Of a stretch of 64,000 bases of DNA, positions 2,074 to 12,872 are shown piece by piece. The notes beneath the pieces were generated by a model. That model did not search any database. It was not told the DNA's origin and was given only the letters and a program-made list of their open reading frames with translations. The position numbers and the translations under genes are program-made. Position 1 is the first letter of the stretch, and each line of letters opens with the position of its first letter. Source of the stretch: Synechococcus sp. WH 7803 (lineage in GTDB: Bacteria > Cyanobacteriota > Cyanobacteriia > PCC-6307 > Cyanobiaceae); assembly GCA_000063505.1 (NCBI GenBank), contig CT971583.1:1767918-1831917 (forward strand). Reading direction: 5' to 3'.

Positions 2074-3930
2074 TCAAGCCTGAAACAACCGTCCTAAAAC
2101 CTTGAGCTGATCAACAAACCCACGCCAGCGCTCGGCATCCGCGCTGGAGAGCTCGCCAACCAAGTCCACCCGGCTCACCCGCTCGCATGGCAAGCCCTGG
2201 TCAAGGAATTCCTGCCAGCTCAGCAAGAATTTGAGATGGCAGATCGAGCGGTTGTACAAGAGCTGCTCGGGCTTGAAGTAGCCAACCACCATGCACTCCT
2301 TGATTGATGTCTCCAACAAACCGATGTCGTCTGCTTGCAGTGCTGGGCTGATGCCCACCACGCTCCCAGCAACCACCGGATCATTTCTGAGATGGGTAGC
2401 AGCAGCATTGGACGACAGGCAAACAATCACCTCGATTGGGATCCAGCCCGAGGTTGTTGCGGGGAAGTAAGTGTCCAGGTATTGCGCTGCTTGCGCCCGT
2501 TGGAGTCTTTGCATGAAGTTGACCTCAATCAGCTGCGTCTTGCCCTCATGCAAGGGAGCTGCGAGGTCCGTTGTAATCACATCAATACCTGCGTTTGGCA
2601 AGGCCATCGAATGGCTGATCGATTCAGCCATCCACTGAACGCTGGGATGCACAACATCCAGTAACTCGCTGTAGACCCAATCCATGCGGTTCTCCAGATC
2701 GCTGGATATGACAACGCGTTCGCCGTCCTCCGGCACCGATTTCAGGGTCAATCCGGCGTGCGCAAGATACTGCTCGATCGCTGGGCTGGCTTGAGGACGC
2801 TCGAGGAAGTATTCCCTGGTGATTGCATCAGGCTCCCGCCAGTTTTCAGCTCTGACTTCGATCAATCTGCCGATGGAGGCGGACCCATCCCCAATCACAA
2901 AAGGCGGCTCGCAGCAAAGTGCGCGCACCAAGGTGTGATTGATAACTGCCATACGCACATAAGCGCCCTTGCAGTGGGCCTGCACTTGCACCTCGCGGTG
3001 GGCAAAAGGAATCGCTTTAGCGACCGCAGCAACAAATGCCCGAGGGGTGTTGATATTCACAGTGATGCCGCAACCCAACTCAGCGGCATCGGGCTTGACG
3101 ACACATGGCCACCCAACCTTTACCGCAGCGTTTAGCGCTTGAGACCTGCTGCATTGGCCGCTTTTAACCGGCAACACTATTGTTCTTGGGGTTGGAAACC
3201 CCAATTGCTGAAGCCATTGGAGCGTGATCGGCTTGCGCTGGGCAACCTGGGCACCTATTAGGGAATCGGCATCGTTGGCGGACGAACGAATCAGCCGCGA
3301 TGCCTCACCAACGCCGAACTGCAATAGCGGGGGATTCGGGCCTGGCTCCAGCCACCTTGGGAAGCAGGGAATACCCCGTTGGGTTGCCGCCCGAATCAAT
3401 GCATTCGAGAACCCATGCCCCCTCCTGATTGAGGCAAGTTCCCGGATTGCCTGCACGCGGGGCTGGAGGCGGGTGGCCACAGAGTTTGGTTCCTCGATGC
3501 AGGCCTCGAGTAGATCGGCCGCCAGATTGAGAGCCGTTGCCATGAGTTCGACATACACCGGTGATCCCACGAAGGCCTTGCAGAGCATGCGAATGCCTTG
3601 GTGATCAGGAGTGATGGCGGGGTAGCCAAGACCCAGCGCACTGGAGGCCCACACCCCACACCAAAGCGCGCAATACAGCCCCCGAGGCTCAGCGGCTTCA
3701 AAAATGGCGGCCTCTTTGCCCCCCAGCACACGCTGTGGCTCGAAAGCCAGCAGAAGTTCAAGAGCTTGGGCCTGTTGCAACCGTTGCTGCAGCTCCGCCA
3801 AGGCCATTGATGAGATCACCGCCGCGGGCTTTAACAGCAACTCCGGATGACGCACAGCATCTGGCTCATCAAGGCAAGGGCCTGAAACCATGCGCAAGGA
3901 GCGCTGTTGCCAGTGTTTGGAACCCATCAA
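2074..3930 (-). CDS. Cyanophycin-synthetase-like ATP-grasp ligase
   Basis: ATP-grasp enzymes activate a carboxylate as an acyl-phosphate and join it to an amine. This 618-residue protein resembles the first half of cyanophycin synthetase: 'GIPCFPRW' and 'LLQFGVGEASRLIRSSAND' before the fold, the lid region 'VGWPCVVKPDAAELGCGI' with Lys279, 'VIGDG' at 345-349, 'NAGIDVITTD' near 446-455 and the metal-binding 'IEVNFMQR' at 468-475. The last ~120 residues show no GxxGKT P-loop, so the Mur-ligase half of CphA that adds the second amino acid is missing or lost. Starts at 3930, 3927 (ATG) or 3891 (MVSGPCLDEP) are all possible. It is divergent from a Gly-rich peptide gene, so it may be a peptide ligase rather than a cyanophycin enzyme. 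Substrate unknown. Confidence 0.82.
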   Translation of the reverse strand: MMGSKHWQQRSLRMVSGPCLDEPDAVRHPELLLKPAAVISSMALAELQQRLQQAQALELLLAFEPQRVLGGKEAAIFEAAEPRGLYCALWCGVWASSALGLGYPAITPDHQGIRMLCKAFVGSPVYVELMATALNLAADLLEACIEEPNSVATRLQPRVQAIRELASIRRGHGFSNALIRAATQRGIPCFPRWLEPGPNPPLLQFGVGEASRLIRSSANDADSLIGAQVAQRKPITLQWLQQLGFPTPRTIVLPVKSGQCSRSQALNAAVKVGWPCVVKPDAAELGCGITVNINTPRAFVAAVAKAIPFAHREVQVQAHCKGAYVRMAVINHTLVRALCCEPPFVIGDGSASIGRLIEVRAENWREPDAITREYFLERPQASPAIEQYLAHAGLTLKSVPEDGERVVISSDLENRMDWVYSELLDVVHPSVQWMAESISHSMALPNAGIDVITTDLAAPLHEGKTQLIEVNFMQRLQRAQAAQYLDTYFPATTSGWIPIEVIVCLSSNAAATHLRNDPVVAGSVVGISPALQADDIGLLETSIKECMVVGYFKPEQLLYNRSICHLKFLLSWQEFLDQGLPCERVSRVDLVGELSSADAERWRGFVDQLKVLGRLFQA

Positions 3931-4075
3931 TCCCGCCAGCGCACAAGGTCAACCCCGATTCACGGGCAGCTTCCGCAGCGCTGCCGGCGGCATTGTCGAG
4001 TGAGACAGCGAGGACGGCAAGACCATCACCCTGCAAGGGAATTGTTGACCGGTCAAACACTGCTATTAATCTCAC
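3869..4075 (-). CDS. Possible small ORF overlapping the ATP-grasp 5' end
   Basis: A 68-codon frame starting at GTG 4075 lies between the ATP-grasp gene and the divergent peptide gene and overlaps the ATP-grasp start by 23-62 bases, depending on the start used. It has GC-rich codon use like the neighbours, a plausible strand-helix pattern (GLAVLAVSLDNAAGSAAEA) and ends GFRPLP. It could be a small companion protein, or the original N-terminus of the ATP-grasp protein now separated by a frameshift. I do not recognise a family. Its overlap with the likely promoter of the ATP-grasp gene argues for caution. Confidence 0.3.
   Translation of the reverse strand: MRLIAVFDRSTIPLQGDGLAVLAVSLDNAAGSAAEAARESGLTLCAGGIDGFQTLATALLAHGFRPLP
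4045..4056. promoter_or_regulatory. 12-bp perfect palindrome between divergent genes
   Basis: TTGACCGGTCAA is a perfect palindrome 53 bases upstream of the peptide start and 115-154 bases upstream of the ATP-grasp start. Its position between two divergent genes suits an operator for both. No regulator gene is adjacent, and the binding protein is unknown. The TTGACC half could also serve as a -35 element, although no well-spaced -10 is clear. Confidence 0.4.
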
Positions 4076-4108
4076 TTAAGCCCTATGCTTTTTGGCTAAG
4101 CACCAGCC

Positions 4109-4303
4109 ATGGACATGGAAAACAAGACAGCTCTAGACACCTCGACCCAACTGCCCTTCGCGGTCGATGCTGCGGTACTCGAGCAGGTGGCTGAATTCCG
4201 CCGCCAACAGCAGGCATCGCTGGAGCTGGCTGGGCCCGGCACCGAACCCGACGGCGGCGGCAGCAAAGGCGGCGGCGGCGGGGAAACCAAGATCGATTTC
4301 TGA
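4109..4303 (+). CDS. Gly-rich small peptide, candidate modified-peptide precursor
   Basis: A 64-residue product starting MDMENKTALDTSTQLPF. Residues ~17-42 form an acidic/amphipathic helix-like segment (VDAAVLEQVAEFRRQQQAS). From residue 42 the chain becomes Gly-rich (GPGTEPDGGGSKGGGGG) and ends ETKIDF. The leader-plus-short-tail layout, the lack of Cys and the divergent CphA-type ATP-grasp gene resemble a ribosomal peptide precursor with its ligase, but it matches no RiPP precursor family I know and lacks the PFFARFL motif of microviridin leaders. ATG 4115 is an alternative start; neither has a strong ribosome site. That it is translated is inferred from its position and from composition that looks unlike random sequence. 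Confidence 0.6.
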   Translation: MDMENKTALDTSTQLPFAVDAAVLEQVAEFRRQQQASLELAGPGTEPDGGGSKGGGGGETKIDF

Positions 4304-4323
4304 ACACAAGCCCTCAGGCCTGT

Positions 4324-4490
4324 TCATTCCGTTAAGGCAGCTGAATCAAACAGTCCGCAGCTGATCAAGCATTTCCGGGCTGGTTCCTGCACATCGGCAG
4401 TACGGCGCCAGCCCTGAACAGAACGCCGGTTGATGGGGTTGCGGGCCTGTACGGCGCTGGCATTAAAAATCAAGCGTTCTTTGCTGTATT
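4324..4490 (-). pseudogene. Remnant 3' end of a TPR-sulfotransferase
   Basis: Read on the minus strand this stretch encodes a tail almost identical to the last ~52 codons of the sulfotransferase at 5772-7280. Both contain RLIFNASA, QARNPIN and SVQGWRR, and end CGLFDSAALTE versus SGLFDSADLTA followed by a stop. The rest of the gene is absent; homology fades near 4490. The reading frame is still open, so the loss is recent or the differences were under selection before it. It marks a duplication or recombination in which the SET gene and one complete copy now lie downstream. Confidence 0.85.
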
Positions 4491-4703
4491 GGTAGGGCCC
4501 TCACCAAAGCTCCGCGTCCATCACCTGTGAAGGCGTTGAGCGGATGGAGCAGCACCGGCAACACCTTTCTGCATCAGGCATTCAGTTGCGGCATTTTGAA
4601 CTGCAATCCGCTCTTGCTTGTTGGGGTCAATGACGGTTTGCACCGGCGGCATGAACAGGGCAATGCATGGGTGGAAAAGTACATCGCGTTCTGTGTAGGA
4701 ACG
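4491..4703. other. Stretch without a convincing gene
   Basis: Between the sulfotransferase remnant and the preferred SET-protein start nothing convincing is seen. The SET reading frame is open back to about 4527, but that part (e.g. NTFLHQAFSCGILNCNP) does not look like SET sequence. The stretch should contain the SET promoter; no clear -35/-10 pair stands out. Confidence 0.4.
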
Positions 4704-5732
4704 ATGGCACCGTCGGCTATGTGGCAGGCACTGCTGGAGGCGTTTCGTGGCTTCGGCGGCATCGCTGAGAACGTGATGCAACGCGAGGGTCCCTTCGGCA
4801 TGGGGCTGTTTCCGATCGACCCTGGCAAAACGGTGAAGCTGCGGGTTCCCGATGCCCTGCTGGTGCCGATCGACGCCGTACAACTGCAGGAGGGGGCGGT
4901 GGTGATCAAGGATCCCAGCGCCTTTCCCCCCGGCTATGCCGATTGGTTCATGCAGTATCAGGCCAACCACTCCTGGGGCTTGGACGGCTGCCGTTCGATC
5001 GAAGCCTTTGAAGAAAGCTTGAAGGCGCTACCTGATGCCGTTCACCAGGACCTCAAGCGTCTGGGCCTCTACAACCTCGACAATCGCTTTCCCGGCGAGA
5101 ACCGCGAACAGGAAATCTTCCAGCGCTTTCTGAAGACCCGCTTCATCAACCACAAAGGCAACAAAGTCTTGATGCCGGTCATCGAACTGGTGAACCATGC
5201 GCCGGCTGCCAAGGGCTTTAATCAAGGTGGCGATGGCATCGCCGTCGGCGGCGTCCATGCCGGCGAAATTCTGGTGAACTACTCCGTCAGCGATCCGTTG
5301 CACCGCCTGCTCGGCTACGGCTTCAACTGCCAGGAACCTTCGGGGTTCAGCCTCAACCTCTGGCTTCAGCACAACGGCCAGCAGGTGGTGGTGCAAGGGG
5401 GGGTGCGGCGCGACGGTCTGACCAAGTCCTGCACGATTGAACGCCAGGACGACAAGCTGGTGGTGGTCCAGCCGCTGCTGGGCCTGACGCGAGAGCCCGG
5501 ACTGCCTCGCACCCTGTTCTCCAGGGCATGTGCAGCAATACCGGGGCTGCGGGCGAATGAGCTGTTCGATCAGATTCACCAGGGCAACACCATGGCCCTG
5601 ATGGGGCTGCTGCTGCAACTGGAGGGCGTGGGAGGTGATGGGGCCGCCCAGCTACGCCAGGGCTGCCTGGATCATTGGATCGCAATCGGCAATGACCTGG
5701 GCACGCGCAGCGATCTGCTGCAGGCAACCTGA
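4704..5732 (+). CDS. SET-domain protein, possible lysine methyltransferase
   Basis: The 342-residue product carries a SET domain of the kind found in Rubisco large-subunit and SETD6-type methyltransferases: a 'GPFGMGLFP' opening near residues 29-37, the catalytic-core 'PVIELVNHAP' with Asn-His at 164-165, then 'GEILVNYSVSDPLHRLLGYGF' elements at ~187-207 with a Tyr at 193. A helical C-terminal region follows. ATG 4704 is chosen because it has AGGA three bases upstream and begins just ahead of the recognisable domain; the open frame extends to 4527. SET enzymes use S-adenosylmethionine to methylate lysines. The target is unknown; a protein or peptide product of this block is possible. Confidence 0.75.
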   Translation: MAPSAMWQALLEAFRGFGGIAENVMQREGPFGMGLFPIDPGKTVKLRVPDALLVPIDAVQLQEGAVVIKDPSAFPPGYADWFMQYQANHSWGLDGCRSIEAFEESLKALPDAVHQDLKRLGLYNLDNRFPGENREQEIFQRFLKTRFINHKGNKVLMPVIELVNHAPAAKGFNQGGDGIAVGGVHAGEILVNYSVSDPLHRLLGYGFNCQEPSGFSLNLWLQHNGQQVVVQGGVRRDGLTKSCTIERQDDKLVVVQPLLGLTREPGLPRTLFSRACAAIPGLRANELFDQIHQGNTMALMGLLLQLEGVGGDGAAQLRQGCLDHWIAIGNDLGTRSDLLQAT

Positions 5733-5771
5733 TGCCCAGATTGAAGAGCTGAACACAGGTCCACGCCCCGT

Positions 5772-7280
5772 TTAAGCCGTTAGGTCAGCTGAATCAAACA
5801 GCCCGCTGCTGATCAAGCACTGCCGGGCTGGTTCCAGCAGATCGGCATAGCGGCGCCAGCCCTGAACAGAGCGACTGTTGATGGGGTTGCGGGCCTGTAT
5901 GGCGCTGGCATTGAAAATCAAGCGATCTTTGCGGTGGTGGTTCAAGTAGCGCTCATCCCAGGGCCAGTCCAGCCACGAGAGCAGTGTGCGGATGTGGTGT
6001 TCAGGGATTTGGGTGAGTTGCTCGTAGTTGTTGGTGAAGATCCTTTCGCCGTAGCGTTCCTTGAAGCCAAGCATTGCCTGCTCCTGGGCAATGATTACTT
6101 CAGCAGCATCAACAACATCGGAGCAATAGTTTTGTGGTGCAACCATCCGCGCCCGCAACATCGAGAGAATGTTGTCGAGAGGATTGCGCCGGCTGTGGAT
6201 CACTTTGGCGTTGGAGATCAGATCAAGGATCACATTGCAGTGAATGAAGTTGTAGACCGATTTATCGATCGTGATGGCGGCTTGGCTTGGCTGCTCCAGC
6301 AGCGGGAGTTCATCGAGGAGCGCGCGATATAGGCCATCCAATGTGCCGCTGGCTTGGTGGTTGAGCTGGGCAATGGCCTGGCCCATCGCGCCGTGTTCCC
6401 CCAAATCGACGCTGCCCTCCTTCATACTCAAGATTGAGGCCAACAGGGTGGAGCCACTGCGCGGCATGCCAACGATGAACACGTGCTGGCTGTGGGCGGA
6501 AGCCTGTGGCGCCACGCCGCTGGGGGTTGTTGCACCAGCGTGGATGCGCTCCAGCATGGCGATTTTGTTGGAGGGCAACCGCTGGAGCTTGGCCTGATTG
6601 GCCTGCTGCAGGGCGGTGGCTGCTTGATCAACATCACCCAGCCGATGCAGACACTCGAACCGGGCAAAATTCAACGTTTCATGCTGTCTGCGATCCGGTG
6701 ATCGGCTGATCAGCCGCTCAATGGAATCAAGAATGTCGATCGCCTCTTGATCACTCTGAAGATCGGCAGCTTGGCCTAATACAGCGACGATCTTCTCATC
6801 ATCAGCAGCCAAAGCCTGACCTAGAAGCTCTTTGCAGCGTTGCCGGTTGCCCTTGTTGCGCTCCAGTGACGCCAGCTCAATCAATGCTCCTGGCGAGCCG
6901 GGTTGAAGCGCAAGGCAGCGATGAATCGCCTCTTCAAACCGATCAAGTTCACGCAAGGCGCGATAGTTGGTCGCCAGCAGTAAGTGGGCGTCATGGCTGC
7001 TGGGGCAATGCTCAATGCAGCGCAGCAGAATCTCCTTGCTTCGTTGGGGTTGATTCCAATCGCGATACACCGCTGCAGCTTGCAAGTAAGGCTCGGGAAC
7101 TTTGGGCTCCAGCGCAATGGCTTGCAGGGCCGCCGCCAGAGCAAGATCGGCCTGATGCTCCTTGGCATAGGCCGCGCTGAGTTGCTGGTAGGCCTTGTGA
7201 TCACCAGGGTGCTGGCTCACCCGCTGCAGAGCTTCGGCTAAAGCTGGAGAGGTTGCCGGTGTTGGCGCATTTTTTTGCAT
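5772..7280 (-). CDS. TPR-sulfotransferase fusion protein
   Basis: A 502-residue protein. Residues ~10-190 are tetratricopeptide repeats (helical pairs such as HKAYQQLSAAYAKEHQADLA). Residues ~267-500 are a sulfotransferase of the protein-tyrosine-sulfotransferase-like class: the PAPS 5'-phosphate loop 'VGMPRSGSTLLASIL' at ~270-284 and the 3'-phosphate motif 'SRRNPLDNILSMLR'. It would transfer sulfate from PAPS to a hydroxyl on a protein, peptide or glycan; TPRs may hold the acceptor. ATG 7280 is preferred over an in-frame TTG at 7295. A broken copy of its last ~52 codons lies at 4324-4490. Divergent from the next TPR gene. Confidence 0.87.
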   Translation of the reverse strand: MQKNAPTPATSPALAEALQRVSQHPGDHKAYQQLSAAYAKEHQADLALAAALQAIALEPKVPEPYLQAAAVYRDWNQPQRSKEILLRCIEHCPSSHDAHLLLATNYRALRELDRFEEAIHRCLALQPGSPGALIELASLERNKGNRQRCKELLGQALAADDEKIVAVLGQAADLQSDQEAIDILDSIERLISRSPDRRQHETLNFARFECLHRLGDVDQAATALQQANQAKLQRLPSNKIAMLERIHAGATTPSGVAPQASAHSQHVFIVGMPRSGSTLLASILSMKEGSVDLGEHGAMGQAIAQLNHQASGTLDGLYRALLDELPLLEQPSQAAITIDKSVYNFIHCNVILDLISNAKVIHSRRNPLDNILSMLRARMVAPQNYCSDVVDAAEVIIAQEQAMLGFKERYGERIFTNNYEQLTQIPEHHIRTLLSWLDWPWDERYLNHHRKDRLIFNASAIQARNPINSRSVQGWRRYADLLEPARQCLISSGLFDSADLTA

Positions 7281-7364
7281 TCTACCGGCGAGCAAAACCC
7301 AAATACTTTATCGAATAATTCCAGAAATCCCATAAAATATGTAGCAGCGTCTGAGAGGCTCAAA

Positions 7365-8654
7365 GTGGCATCAACGCAACTAGCCCAGGCGCTGGCAACC
7401 GCCCTCGAAGCCGTCAAAAGCAATCCCAAGAGCGCAGAAGCACACAAAAACTTTGCCAACAGCTGTAGAGATTGCGGCTACCTTAACCAGGCGCTGACGT
7501 CAATATCTCAAGCTATTTTGCTGGATCCAAATGACACCAATTCTTACTGGATCCAAGGATTGATTCACAGGGAGCTTGGCAACTTCCATGAGGCGCTTCA
7601 ATCAAATCATCAAGCCCTAAAAATTGATCCTCACAATATCGATGCAACGATCGAGCTTGGCCACCTCCACCGCAAATTTGGCAATCTCGATCAAGCGCTG
7701 GCCTGTGCACTTGAATCAATTAAACCCAATGCTGCCGATACAACTAAAGCCTGTGATCTTTTAACACTCACACTTCAGCAACAAAGAAATACAATCAATT
7801 CAAAGGCAATCCACCCGATCGAGAGTGTCGACGCAGAACTCAGAAAGCTTCCATTGCCTGGAGCCAACAACAGCACAATCAGCGCAGCTGAGATTCAGCA
7901 TTTCATCCAAAAAGCCTTCATCATTACAGCCTCACTTGATCAGCAGATCAACACAAGCCTCACCCAGATCTATCATATTCAACAATCCGAAGCTCCAAAC
8001 TGCTCCGCCCTCAGCAAATTCTTTCTTGCTCAACAGGCGATCGCCAAGCGATGCCACAGCTGCTATAAAATTCAACTTAACGCCAAAAGTCTAGACGAGC
8101 TGCTGATGCTTCATTTTCTCATGAAAACATTGCATCTCAAAGATAGCAATATAAGCAAGTGCATGATTGAATTACGGCCAGGCCAAAACAATTTTTACAA
8201 GGGATTAATTTACTGCTCAGGCGTGAAGGAAGCCGCGCACGTTGCCAAAAATGTAATTTTAGAATGCCGGAAAAGGACAGCTCTTTCCCCCGAGGCTTCA
8301 ATCAATCGAGGATGCACATCCTTCAGAAAAGAATACCCCGATTACGGAGCAATCAATACATCCACAAGTCTTCAGGAAGGGCCAAGGCAACGCGAGGAGT
8401 GGGCGAATAAGGAAGCCCAGTTTTTCAAACAAAGGAATTCCATGCCGATCAACAAATCCGCCTCTGCGTTTAATCTCGGTGAATGGCTTATTATCAAAAA
8501 CTGGATCGCTTATGCCAACGCCATGGGTGACCCACTGACTGGGTATTCGCAGCCGAGCTTCAGCCACACCAACGCCAATTTTTTAGCGCAAGTTGAAATC
8601 ATGAAAGACAAACAAGCCAGCCCATGTCCACCCGAGATACCTGGCATTGAATAA
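7365..8654 (+). CDS. TPR-repeat protein with uncharacterised C-terminal half
   Basis: A 429-residue product from GTG 7365, chosen because GAGAGG lies six bases upstream; a TTG at 7275 would extend into the divergent gene's start. Residues ~10-130 hold about three TPRs (AEAHKNFANSC, NSYWIQGLIHRELGN, TIELGHLHRKFGNLDQAL). The C-terminal ~300 residues are rich in Asn, Gln, Lys and Ile with scattered Cys and match nothing I know. Base composition is clearly more AT-rich than the flanking housekeeping genes, which suggests horizontal acquisition. The 2OG-oxygenase gene starts 11 bases downstream, so the two form an operon. Confidence 0.72.
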   Translation: MASTQLAQALATALEAVKSNPKSAEAHKNFANSCRDCGYLNQALTSISQAILLDPNDTNSYWIQGLIHRELGNFHEALQSNHQALKIDPHNIDATIELGHLHRKFGNLDQALACALESIKPNAADTTKACDLLTLTLQQQRNTINSKAIHPIESVDAELRKLPLPGANNSTISAAEIQHFIQKAFIITASLDQQINTSLTQIYHIQQSEAPNCSALSKFFLAQQAIAKRCHSCYKIQLNAKSLDELLMLHFLMKTLHLKDSNISKCMIELRPGQNNFYKGLIYCSGVKEAAHVAKNVILECRKRTALSPEASINRGCTSFRKEYPDYGAINTSTSLQEGPRQREEWANKEAQFFKQRNSMPINKSASAFNLGEWLIIKNWIAYANAMGDPLTGYSQPSFSHTNANFLAQVEIMKDKQASPCPPEIPGIE

Positions 8655-8665
8655 GGAAAAATTTC

Positions 8666-9445
8666 ATGCCCCGCATTGACCCAGCCATGACAGATCAAGA
8701 CCTTGGCATCAAAGCGGCAGACTCTTTATTACGTTCATGCACAAGTGGGCAGGTTCGCTACCAACAGCCGGCACCCCACGGAGTGATTGATGATTGCTTT
8801 GATCCTGCCTCTCTGGCAGCCATCCATGAATATTTCCCGGCCCCAGAGATGATGAAGCCTTATCCAGGCCAGAAGAAGGATTGCATTGATCGATTATGCG
8901 CCCCACTGAGTGACAATGCATTGGGGAAAAGTCACATAGCATCATTCCAGCAACCTGCAGCTGAATTCTGGGACACATTTCAGCACCATCTCAATAATCC
9001 TGCTTTTAGCAGCCAACTACTCAATGCCATCATTCCAGCAAATTTAGCCAAAGAAAAGGATCGGCACCCATCAGTGCATCTCACAACGGTATTGATTCGT
9101 GATAGCGATGGTTACAGTCTTGGCCCTCATATCGACCCACCAAGCAGAGTTTTTACAATCTTGGCCTATCTGCCAGAGCATCAAGGGCTTAATGCATGCG
9201 GAACTCGACTCTACGTCCCAAAGAATCCCCAAGACCAAGATCGATTCCCAAAAAACGGAAAAACACAAGATTGGGCTAATTTTTTTGAAGTCAAAACGAT
9301 TGATTTTGTTTCCAATCGCGCTTTTGTTTTGCCCCGAACGGCTGAGGCCTGGCATGGCGTTCCAACCGTGAAAGGTTCACAAGGTCAGCGCAAGATGATT
9401 CTCATTGCTGGCATGAAGAACAACTTGATGGATGAAAACCAATGA
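8666..9445 (+). CDS. 2-oxoglutarate/Fe(II)-dependent oxygenase
   Basis: A 259-residue protein with the facial triad of 2OG-Fe(II) oxygenases: 'GPHIDPPSRVFTILAYLPE' supplies His155 and Asp157, His230 in 'EAWHGVPT' is the distal ligand, and Arg242 in 'GQRKMIL' is placed to bind 2-oxoglutarate. The fold resembles the prolyl-4-hydroxylase/phytanoyl type that hydroxylates side chains or small molecules. ATG 8666 has AAGGAAA upstream. The gene follows the TPR protein and shares its AT-rich composition. In picocyanobacteria such oxygenases often sit with TPR proteins and sulfotransferases; the substrate here is unknown. Confidence 0.8.
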   Translation: MPRIDPAMTDQDLGIKAADSLLRSCTSGQVRYQQPAPHGVIDDCFDPASLAAIHEYFPAPEMMKPYPGQKKDCIDRLCAPLSDNALGKSHIASFQQPAAEFWDTFQHHLNNPAFSSQLLNAIIPANLAKEKDRHPSVHLTTVLIRDSDGYSLGPHIDPPSRVFTILAYLPEHQGLNACGTRLYVPKNPQDQDRFPKNGKTQDWANFFEVKTIDFVSNRAFVLPRTAEAWHGVPTVKGSQGQRKMILIAGMKNNLMDENQ

Positions 9446-9464
9446 AGCTGATCCTTTGCGGGCC

Positions 9465-9660
9465 TCAGAAACGGCGCGGAATCGCCCCCCGTTCGCGGAT
9501 TAAGGCCTGGCGCCATTGCTGTTGAGCCAGATCCATGGGTTCATGAATTGGCAAAAGGATGCGATGGATTCCAGGGCAAAGCAAACCCTGATCCACAAAT
9601 TGAGGCCTTGCATTAGACCGATTTTCGCAGATTGGGATGATCGGCAAAGCGTGGGAGCGA
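9465..9660 (-). other. Orphan ORF at the right edge of the accessory block
   Basis: The minus-strand frame is open from about 9692 (inside the pyrF end) to a stop at 9465 and contains protein-like text (ARPQFVDQGLLCPGIHRI, then LLPIHEPMDLAQQQWRQAL). No start with a ribosome site is seen after the pyrF stop. It looks like the C-terminal stump of a gene truncated by the block boundary. I cannot name the family. Confidence 0.3.
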
Positions 9661-10416
9661 TCAGCCCAGGAGCTCCCCGCAACAAGCTGCAAACGCCGCG
9701 CTGGGATCTTCGGCCTTGGTGATCGGCCGGCCGATCACCAGCTGACTGGCTCCTGCTGCAATCGCCTCAGCCGGCCCCATCACCCGGGCCTGATCCCCAA
9801 CAGCAGCGCCTTTGGGGCGAATGCCTGGGGTGACCAACGCGAACGGTTCAGGGTGCTGCGCCCGCAACGCCGCGGCCTCCAGAGGTGAGCACACACACCC
9901 ACCGATTCCAGCGGTCGCCGAGAGCTGCGCCAACGCCGGCACCCGTTCGGCGATGCCCTGGGTGATGGCGAGTTCCCGTTGCAATCGCTGCTCCTCCCAA
10001 CTGGTGAGCACCGTCACCGCCAACAGCGTGGGGGCGGGTTGGCCTGCGCCTTGAGCTCCTTCCACCGCTGCGGCCTGGGCTGCCTTGAGCGCTTCGCTGC
10101 CGGCGCAGGCATGCACCGTGATCAGCTCGGCCCCCAGGGCCGCCGCCCGCCGGCAGGCCCCGGCCATCGTGGCGGGGATGTCGTGAAATTTGAGATCGAG
10201 AAACACCCGCAACCCCTGCTCGCGCAGTTGGGCCACCACCTCAGGACCAGCCTGCACAAACAGCTCCAGGCCCACCTTCACCCAACGCAGCCCCTCCACC
10301 TGGGCGGCAAAGGCCAAAGCCTGCTCGGGCGCCATGCCATCGAGGGCCACGATGATCCGATCAGCCGGATGAGCGGAACGCAACGATGCCAAGACAGCCG
10401 CAGCAGCAGCCTCCAT
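9661..10416 (-). CDS. pyrF: Orotidine 5'-phosphate decarboxylase
   Basis: PyrF decarboxylates OMP to UMP, the last step of de novo pyrimidine synthesis, in the cytosol. The 251-residue product has 'RIIVALDGM' at the first barrel strand, the catalytic '[13 protein letters not shown]' (Asp-Lys-Asp-type centre), '[12 protein letters not shown]' and the phosphate-binding '[12 protein letters not shown]' near the C-terminus. ATG 10416 ([12 protein letters not shown]) is preferred because upstream extension would run into the divergent cupin gene. In related picocyanobacteria I recall pyrF close to plsY; here they are separated by ~7.7 kb. Confidence 0.96.
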
Positions 10417-10907: not shown

Positions 10908-10936
10908 CCCTGCTCAAGCGGTAAGCCGCCGGAAGG
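10908..10936. repeat. Direct repeat copy 1 (tyrS 3'-end duplicate)
   Basis: Twenty-nine bases here are identical to 11622-11650, which covers the last codons of tyrS and the end of the PIN toxin gene. Similarity continues with mismatches for ~30 bases beyond (to about 10970), so the duplicated unit is ~60 bases. The copies bracket the toxin-antitoxin genes. Confidence 0.92.
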
Positions 10937-10970
10937 CCCTCCTGCCCAGCCGCAGCACATACCCCTCTAG

Positions 10971-10992
10971 CTTAGCCGCCCTGCCGGCTAAG
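10971..10992. promoter_or_regulatory. Inverted repeat upstream of the antitoxin gene, likely operator
   Basis: CTTAGCCG and CGGCTAAG form perfect 8-base arms around CCCTGC, ending eight bases before the antitoxin ATG. Phd/YefM and VapB antitoxins usually bind palindromes at this position to repress their own operon, so this is the likely autoregulatory site. Binding is inferred. Confidence 0.6.
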
Positions 10993-11000
10993 CTGATGCC

Positions 11001-11228
11001 ATGCAAGTGAATCTCCACGCCGCCAAGACCCACCTCTCCCGTTATGTGGAGCAGGCCCTGGATGGGGATGAGGTGGTGATCGCTCGGGCCGGCAAACCCC
11101 TGGTGAAGCTCGTCCCCGTCGACACCTCACCGCGCAGGCGGACGCTGGGGTTCATGAGCAACCAGGGCATCGCCACTGCTGATGTGAAAGCCGACTTCGT
11201 TGATGACATCAACGCCATGTTCGGCTGA
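11001..11228 (+). CDS. Phd/YefM-family antitoxin
   Basis: A 75-residue antitoxin. The N-terminal half is a typical Phd/YefM DNA-binding fold: MQVNLHAAKTHLSRYVEQAL, then 'GDEVVIARAGKPLVKLVPV'. The C-terminal tail (TADVKADFVDDINAMFG) is the flexible part that would neutralise the toxin; 'DDINAMFG' resembles tails of antitoxins paired with PIN toxins. The stop overlaps the toxin start as TGATG, giving coupled translation. An inverted repeat just upstream is the probable autorepression site. Confidence 0.9.
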   Translation: MQVNLHAAKTHLSRYVEQALDGDEVVIARAGKPLVKLVPVDTSPRRRTLGFMSNQGIATADVKADFVDDINAMFG

Positions 11229-11638
11229 TGACCAGCGGAACAACACCGCCACGCCTGCTCGACACGCAGCTGCTGATCTGGATGGCCTTTGCACCGGAAG
11301 AGCTCCCAGCCACGCTGATCCCAGATCTGAAAGACCGACAACAACGCTTTTTTGTGAGTGTCGTCAGCCTGTGGGAAGTGGCGATCAAACGCTCGCTCAA
11401 CCGCCCCGACTTTCAGTTCGACACTGCTGCGTTACGCCAGCATCTCCAGCGTGAAGGGTTTGAAGAATTGCCCATCCAGGCCGAGCACTGCTTAGCCGTC
11501 CAGAATTTGCCCTGGCACCACAGGGATCCTTTTGATCGGTTGCTGATCGCTCAGGCGCAGCAGGAGCGGAACCAGCTACTGAGCTGCGATCAGACCCTGA
11601 GCGAGTACGGGGCCTGCGTCACCCTGCTCAAGCGGTAA
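11228..11638 (+). CDS. vapC: PIN-domain toxin (VapC type)
   Basis: A 136-residue PIN-domain ribonuclease. Acidic metal-binding residues are visible in '[12 protein letters not shown]' (first Asp), '[10 protein letters not shown]' (Glu) and '[13 protein letters not shown]' with a later '[12 protein letters not shown]' (Asp). Such toxins cleave tRNA or rRNA when freed from the antitoxin. It is coupled to the antitoxin gene by a one-base overlap. Its last codons overlap the convergent tyrS end within a 29-bp direct repeat, so the terminal LLKR residues come from sequence shared with tyrS. Confidence 0.9.
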
Positions 11639-11650
11639 GCCGCCGGAAGG
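11622..11650. repeat. Direct repeat copy 2 (within the tyrS 3' end)
   Basis: This is the native copy: it contains the tyrS stop codon (complement of 11628-11630) and the toxin stop (11636-11638). The identical copy at 10908-10936 lies on the other side of the toxin-antitoxin pair. Confidence 0.92.
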
Positions 11651-12872
11651 TCTTCTTGCCCAACTGCAGCACCTTGCCCTCCAGCTCCGCGGCTGTGGCG
11701 AACTCCTGGTTGGGGTCGGTGATTTTCTCCCCCTCCAAGCGCACGGCGCCACCCTTGATCTGACGGCGCGCATCGCTGCTGCTGGCGCAGATGCCCACCG
11801 CGCTGAGCAAATAGAAGGCCTTGGCCGGAAAGTTCACCTGCGCCAGCGACGCCTCCGGCACCTCCGCCGCCGCATCACCCGCTCCGCCCACCAGGCTGGC
11901 GGCATCGGCCTGAGCCTTGGCGGCGGCCTCCAATCCATGGCGGCTGGCGGTCACAGCGAGAGCCATCGCCTTCTGCTTCTCGCGTGGGTTCTCCGGCAAC
12001 GCCGCCAGATCCAGGTTGGTGAGCAAGGTCACGTAATCGTTGATCGCCCCATCGCCCACCTTTTCGAGCTTGGAGTACATCGAGAGGGGATCCTCCTCCA
12101 AACCCACGGTGTTACCGAGGCTTTTGCTCATCTTCTGCACCCCATCGAGACCCACCAGGATTGGCAAGAGCAACCCGAACTGCGTCCCCTTGCCGAAATG
12201 GCGTTGCAGATCGCGGCCCATGGCCACATTGAACTTCTGGTCGGTGCCGCCCAGCTCCACATCGGCGTTCACCGCCACCGAGTCGTAGCCCTGCAGCAGC
12301 GGATAGAGAAACTCATGCAGGGCAATGGGCGTGCCGCTGCCATAGCGCTTGGAGAAGTCGTCCTTGGCCAGCATCTGGCCCACGGTGGCCGTCCCCAGCA
12401 GGCCGATCACGGCCGGCAGGTCCAACCCCTCCAGCCATTCGCTGTTGCGGCGCACCTCCAAACGGCCGGGGGTCTCGAAATCCAGCAGGGCCGTGTCCTT
12501 CGGCTGCCCCTGGCCCAGCTGGGCGAGATAGGTGGCGGCATTGGCGTCCACCTGCTCAGCTGTGAGCTGCACCCGGGTGTCGCTTTTGCCGGTGGGATCA
12601 CCGATCCGCGCCGTGAAATCCCCGATGATCAGCACCGCCGTATGGCCCGCATCCTGGAAGGCCCGCAGCTTGCGGAACAGGATGCTGTGGCCCAGATGAA
12701 TGCTGCTGCCGGTGGGATCGATGCCCAATTTCACGCGCAGCGGTCGGCCCTGCGACTCCGCTTGCGCCAGGCGCGCCGCCAGAGCCTGATCCGCATCGGC
12801 GGGGTCTCCTGCAGGAAAGAGATCGGCCATGCCGCGCGACAGCCAGGCCGGCAAGGACGGGGTCGGGGCCAT
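11628..12872 (-). CDS. tyrS: Tyrosyl-tRNA synthetase
   Basis: TyrS charges tRNA-Tyr with tyrosine in the cytosol. The 414-residue class I enzyme has the HIGH-like 'LGHS' in '[15 protein letters not shown]', the Tyr/ATP pocket, '[19 protein letters not shown]', and the KMSKS motif in '[14 protein letters not shown]'. The C-terminal ~70 residues are an S4-like RNA-binding domain ([21 protein letters not shown]). It is the TyrZ-like form typical of this lineage. The open frame runs to 13454, but ATG 12872 ([11 protein letters not shown]) gives the normal length. It converges on the PIN toxin with an 11-base overlap. Confidence 0.96.

Follow-up and report, generated by a model that had tools for sequence, protein, structure and literature searches.

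The ligase gene and its fold

The window analysed here is a stretch of 64,000 nucleotides from Synechococcus sp. WH 7803, whose genome is a single contig of 2,366,980 bases. Two of its genes lie head to head and diverge from a spacer of 178 bp. One encodes an ATP-grasp ligase and the other a short peptide:

2074-3930 (-): CphA2-type ATP-grasp ligase, 618 codons, 618 aa (NCBIfam match and fold)
Parts of the ligase: N-terminal ~1-130, ATP-grasp ~205-475, vestigial C-terminal ~495-618
4109-4303 (+): 64-aa peptide gene, proposed carrier or substrate (codon score; in-frame homologues at locus L003 in RCC307 and locus L034 in genome G099)
4147-4326 (+): block shared with G099 at 90% DNA identity, from the QLPF codons through past the stop (blastn, DNA alignment)

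The ligase frame starts with TTG at 3930. The codon after it is an ATG (3927), which would give a protein of 617 aa if used. An upstream, overlapping 68-aa frame at 3869-4075 (-) was rejected as a missing N-terminus, because relatives begin at the ligase start and its codon score is low.

The NCBIfam models of cyanophycin synthetase (CphA) cover residues 130-471 of the ligase only, at about 4e-47 and far under the model cut-offs. This coverage corresponds to the ATP-grasp part of cyanophycin synthetase without the Mur part. The original prediction had described just such a protein, 618 residues long and head to head with a 64-residue frame, and that description is borne out. In structure, an AlphaFold2 model of the single chain (mean pLDDT 82) has as its best Foldseek match the solved CphA2 7TA5, over the whole length (E 5e-33, 639 columns), followed by CphA1 and then by more CphA2 structures. 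The presumed ATP- and metal-binding residues are retained in the alignment (VVKPD, GIDV, EVN). In the window strain and in RCC307 alike the gene is intact, and a dN/dS comparison points to purifying selection.

An ATP-grasp half without a working Mur half is the known layout of CphA2 (PMC10206079, PMC9262961), a cyanobacterial enzyme that uses its one active site to polymerise beta-Asp-Arg dipeptides anew (PMC10206079). By its modelled fold the enzyme has this architecture, which is already known and not new. Like the CphA2 proteins of Gloeothece (7TA5) and Stanieria (8FXH/8FXI), it shares the fold over its full length, has about 620 aa (within the ~600-640 aa of the class), and combines an N domain and one ATP-grasp site with a vestigial, Mur-like C-terminal part, as seen with both Foldseek and NCBIfam. 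It differs from them in that structural alignment gives only 18-21% identity to them, its gene adjoins a peptide gene, and its genome offers no cyanophycinase or CphA1 as a partner.

It also differs at a conserved site. CphA1, CphA2 and most relatives retain an NxSxGG motif. In the clade to which this ligase belongs it is replaced by RMDWVY, RMNWVY, RKDWVR or RSNWVY, which fits a changed substrate. By our reading of the alignment, the His at the position of Synechocystis CphA1 H267, a residue needed for the G domain of that enzyme (PMC9262961), is not retained either.

CphA2 draws its beta-Asp-Arg from cyanophycin, a supply that calls for a cyanophycinase and usually a CphA1 in the same genome. 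Neither a match to TIGR02069 (cyanophycinase) nor one over cut-off to TIGR02068 (full CphA1) was found in the window genome (G000), RCC307 (G054) or G099. The CphA2 substrate beta-Asp-Arg is therefore without a known source, and to judge from gene content classical CphA2 chemistry is unlikely in these genomes.

The small gene and the company it keeps

An open reading frame of this length proves nothing alone, since shuffling the spacer yields an ATG frame of this length or more in 75% of cases. At 0.291 per codon, the codon score of the 64-aa frame lies at the median of the window's real genes and exceeds that of 99% of spurious frames. It starts with ATG and ends in ...KGGGGGETKIDF. RCC307 (L003:7657-7938, minus strand) and G099 (L034:14915-15196, plus strand) have homologous frames that share the helix, the Gly tail and the KIDF end, and the lengths of the three differ by multiples of three only. 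With this codon score and the in-frame recurrence in two more genomes, the 64-aa frame is very probably a gene with homologues in two other Cyanobiaceae.

At all three loci the peptide is the same from QLPF to LELAGP and from KGGGGGE to its end, save for one A/E change and one T/D change; the T of the ETKIDF end is D in G099. Variation is confined to a linker of 5-9 residues and to the N-terminal residues ahead of QLPF. Linker apart, the segment from QLPF to the stop codon is nearly identical in the three genomes, synonymous sites included. The identity with G099 starts sharply at QLPF, where the DNA upstream is unrelated, and high DNA identity runs on beyond the stop codon.

The peptide matches no known peptide or graspetide family in Pfam or NCBIfam and has no PFFARFL motif, in agreement with the original prediction. 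Weak matches in other Cyanobiaceae (E 0.0004-0.05) fell in unrelated frames and proteins and were discarded. A search of viral contigs and phage records gave no match to the peptide, one of the spacer gave no promoter or terminator consensus, and among papers carrying locus tags of this stretch none was relevant.

Ligase matches occur in 14 of 300 family genomes (the window genome counted), all at 21-37% identity except that of RCC307. The ligase is absent from the 30 other genomes of the same genus that were searched, save for a C-terminal fragment in G017. In a tree of 24 relatives, the ligases of the window genome, RCC307, G099 and G275 form one clade (support 100/99). The peptide was found in three of 400 sampled Cyanobiaceae genomes, namely the window genome, RCC307 and G099, and nowhere beyond the window genome in a sample of 386 from the phylum. 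All three peptide genes lie no more than one gene from a ligase of that single clade, and none was located away from such a ligase in the 400 family genomes. In G017 flanking genes of the island described below persist, the ligase is reduced to a C-terminal scar, and the peptide is absent.

Gene order is not the same at each locus. In RCC307 the peptide is followed by the divergent ligase and an autotransporter, and in G099 by the divergent autotransporter and then the ligase. Beta-barrel proteins of the autotransporter type directly adjoin the ligase in both orders (L003:9873-11645 and L034:13331-14866). As a necessary partner they were rejected, since they occur widely without the ligase (41 of 400 genomes).

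G275, the remaining member of the clade, lacks a credible peptide. Upstream of its ligase is a 61-aa frame, but the codon score of this frame is that of non-coding sequence, and 54% of shuffles give one like it by chance. No such peptide was seen among the more distant ligase relatives examined, where Gly-rich small frames beside the ligase proved to be GC-rich noise lacking the helix and the KIDF end. The expectation that the small frame would be conserved beside homologues of the ATP-grasp gene holds for the window genome, RCC307 and G099 but not for G275 or these relatives. The pair does recur, at three loci in one ligase clade, but the variable tail that had been foreseen behind a conserved leader is missing, the helix, Gly tail and KIDF end all being nearly invariant.

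Genome comparison indicates that ligase and peptide are a real, rare pair, whose function we infer. Their company in three genomes suggests that the enzyme may build something onto the peptide.

An island exchanged between strains

The pair lies in an island at 2125-9601 that is 92% identical to RCC307 by blastn, with unrelated flanks on either side. Such identity between unrelated flanks indicates that the island was exchanged laterally. Beyond the pair, the following features were recorded:

4300-4493: duplicate of the TPR-sulfotransferase 3' end, in direct repeat with 5749-5941 at 85% (self blastn)
4527-5732 (+): 401-aa protein, no Pfam or NCBIfam match, 96% identical in RCC307
5749-5941: second copy of the direct repeat (self blastn)
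5772-7295 (-): TPR and sulfotransferase protein, 507 aa (Pfam Sulfotransfer_3, 4e-18)
7275-8654 (+): TPR protein, 459 aa (Pfam TPR)
8666-9445 (+): 2OG-Fe(II) oxygenase-like protein, 259 aa (Pfam 2OG-FeII_Oxy_3, a weak match under cut-off at E 0.002)
9465-9692 (-): scar left by the C-terminal part of another ATP-grasp gene, G099 type; resembles L003:2258-2560 and L034

Three of these genes, for the sulfotransferase, the oxygenase-like and the 401-aa protein, accompany the pair in both the window genome and RCC307; any role of theirs with it would be conjectural. The 401-aa gene is flanked by the two direct repeats, as though inserted by duplication. By eye only, an ELVNH stretch in its product suggests a SET-like protein.

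Divergence from RCC307 is uneven along the island. The other genes differ little (dS 0.04-0.13), and the ligase is a mosaic, with dS 0.115 in codons 1-185, 0.6-1.1 thereafter, and dN of about 0.15-0.23 past codon 185. The catalytic part of the ligase thus appears to have been replaced or to be older, while remaining under purifying selection. Across the loci, ligases beside near-identical peptides differ down to about 30% identity. Here it is the enzyme that varies, beside a constant peptide, the opposite of the usual modified-peptide locus with its variable core.

Scars of this second ATP-grasp gene mark the island's far end in three genomes (9465-9692 (-), L003:2258-2560 and L052:7214-7396), and the copy in RCC307 shares 67% identity with the C-terminus of the G099 ligase. 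Just past the scar in the window is a perfect 24-base palindrome at 9717-9740, possibly a terminator. Further on, two small adjacent frames at 11001-11638 were read by eye as an antitoxin and a PIN-type toxin, and near them is a 65-base direct repeat (10908-10972 and 11622-11686).

What the ligase may do with the peptide

CphA enzymes elongate chains at the C-terminus (PMC9262961). In pearlins, a carrier peptide receives at its C-terminus an amino acid, which is then modified and released (PMC9303977, PMC11117183). With C-terminal elongation by CphA enzymes on one side and a constant peptide beside a varying enzyme on the other, a carrier or primer loaded at its C-terminus is the best fit. We tentatively propose that in this pair the CphA2-type ATP-grasp ligase acts on the ribosomal peptide, which would be dedicated to it. 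The ligase would spend ATP to phosphorylate the C-terminal carboxylate of the peptide and would join to it one or more amino acids or a dipeptide. The acceptor end would be the nearly invariant KGGGGGE[T/D]KIDF on its flexible linker, and the conserved helical part, QLPF...LELAGP, may be a docking element. The peptide would then be a constant, pearlin-like carrier or primer, while the exchanged ligases would set what is attached. The peptide as acceptor, its C-terminus as the site and the identity of the added group are all parts that we infer. The stronger claim would have a CphA-type ATP-grasp enzyme lengthen, without tRNA, a dedicated ribosomal carrier or primer at its C-terminus, the enzyme being exchanged between strains around a constant peptide; as a whole this is rather unlikely.

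Known systems resemble the pair in part. Pearlins (TglA, AmmA, TmoA) likewise have a short ribosomal peptide beside a ligase, a constant carrier to which the constant peptide of the three loci here would correspond, with C-terminal loading, which is only proposed here. However, their PEARL ligases belong to another, LanB-like family that uses aminoacyl-tRNA; none was found among the neighbours examined, where a CphA-type ATP-grasp enzyme stands instead, nor was a protease, which pearlin-type release would need, recognised near the pair. The amino-group carrier system of LysW and LysX also comprises a small acidic carrier and an ATP-grasp ligase that acts at the C-terminal end of the carrier. 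There the likeness ends, as the peptide here matches no Pfam or NCBIfam family and the ligase is no more than a marginal match to the LysX model.

About as likely as the carrier or primer reading, and quite possible without being probable, is that the peptide is an independent small gene riding with the ligase on a mosaic exchanged island, and that the ligase makes an unrelated amino-acid-derived molecule or polymer. The 92% identity to RCC307 between unrelated flanks, the break in ligase dS after codon 185, the sharp edge of the G099 block at QLPF next to repeated sequence, and the distant ligases without a peptide all agree with this. It explains less well why the two remain together beside a ligase only ~30% identical and in another gene order, why both are missing from G017, and why no peptide is found apart from such a ligase. 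Those same observations (company at three of three loci and joint absence in G017) speak for a carrier or primer, together with the codon usage, the intact ligase, the missing CphA1 and cyanophycinase and the lost NxSxGG. Since two of the three peptide loci lie in one laterally shared island, the association amounts to about two independent cases. Against a carrier or primer stand the near-identical synonymous sites beside ligases of ~30% identity, which recent recombination would explain without any shared function, and the clade member G275 without a credible peptide. Among the immediate neighbours of the pair in the window we recognised neither a protease nor a leader-binding element nor a transporter.

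It is unlikely that the enzyme is a plain CphA2-like one, making a cyanophycin-like polymer from beta-Asp-Arg or a similar dipeptide without any peptide. The full-length fold match and the occurrence of CphA2 in cyanobacteria (PMC10206079) would suit this, but the genome lacks a full CphA1 and a cyanophycinase, neither NxSxGG nor the G-domain His (H267, by alignment reading; PMC9262961) is kept, and structural-alignment identity to known CphA is just ~20%. Still less probable is a graspetide, in which the ligase would close side-chain lactones or lactams at T, K, D and E of the ETKIDF end. These residues do stand close together within the conserved end, and as in microviridins a short peptide gene adjoins an ATP-grasp enzyme; yet the ligase is of a different ATP-grasp family, matching CphA and no graspetide-maturase model in NCBIfam, the PFFARFL leader is absent, the tail is constant rather than variable, and T is D in G099. 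An untranslated frame, with only the DNA being shared, is equally improbable: its length is expected by chance and high DNA identity continues past the stop, but its codon score is that of a typical gene and its length changes in threes only. The earlier view of a peptide and its ligase is partly supported, with modification of the peptide as its conjectural part.

If the carrier or primer reading is true, cyanophycin-type polymerases, for which the source of the primer is a live question, would be joined to carrier-peptide biosynthesis, hitherto bound to aminoacyl-tRNA ligases. In its stronger form, without tRNA, it would represent a new route by which products or polymers of amino acids are assembled on a ribosomally made peptide. 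Of the numerous picocyanobacterial CphA2-like genes without cyanophycinase, one branch would moreover gain a function.

Several CphA2-like ligases occur together with long CphA1-like proteins (853-862 aa) in single genomes, namely G150, G275, G064, G053 and G167 (loci L035, L042, L043, L044, L047 and L048). Cyanophycinase was sought in G053, G150 and G275, and none was found. The long proteins fall under the CphA1 cut-off where scored, and some of these CphA2- and CphA1-like genes adjoin PGA_cap, methyltransferase, P450 and TauD-like genes.
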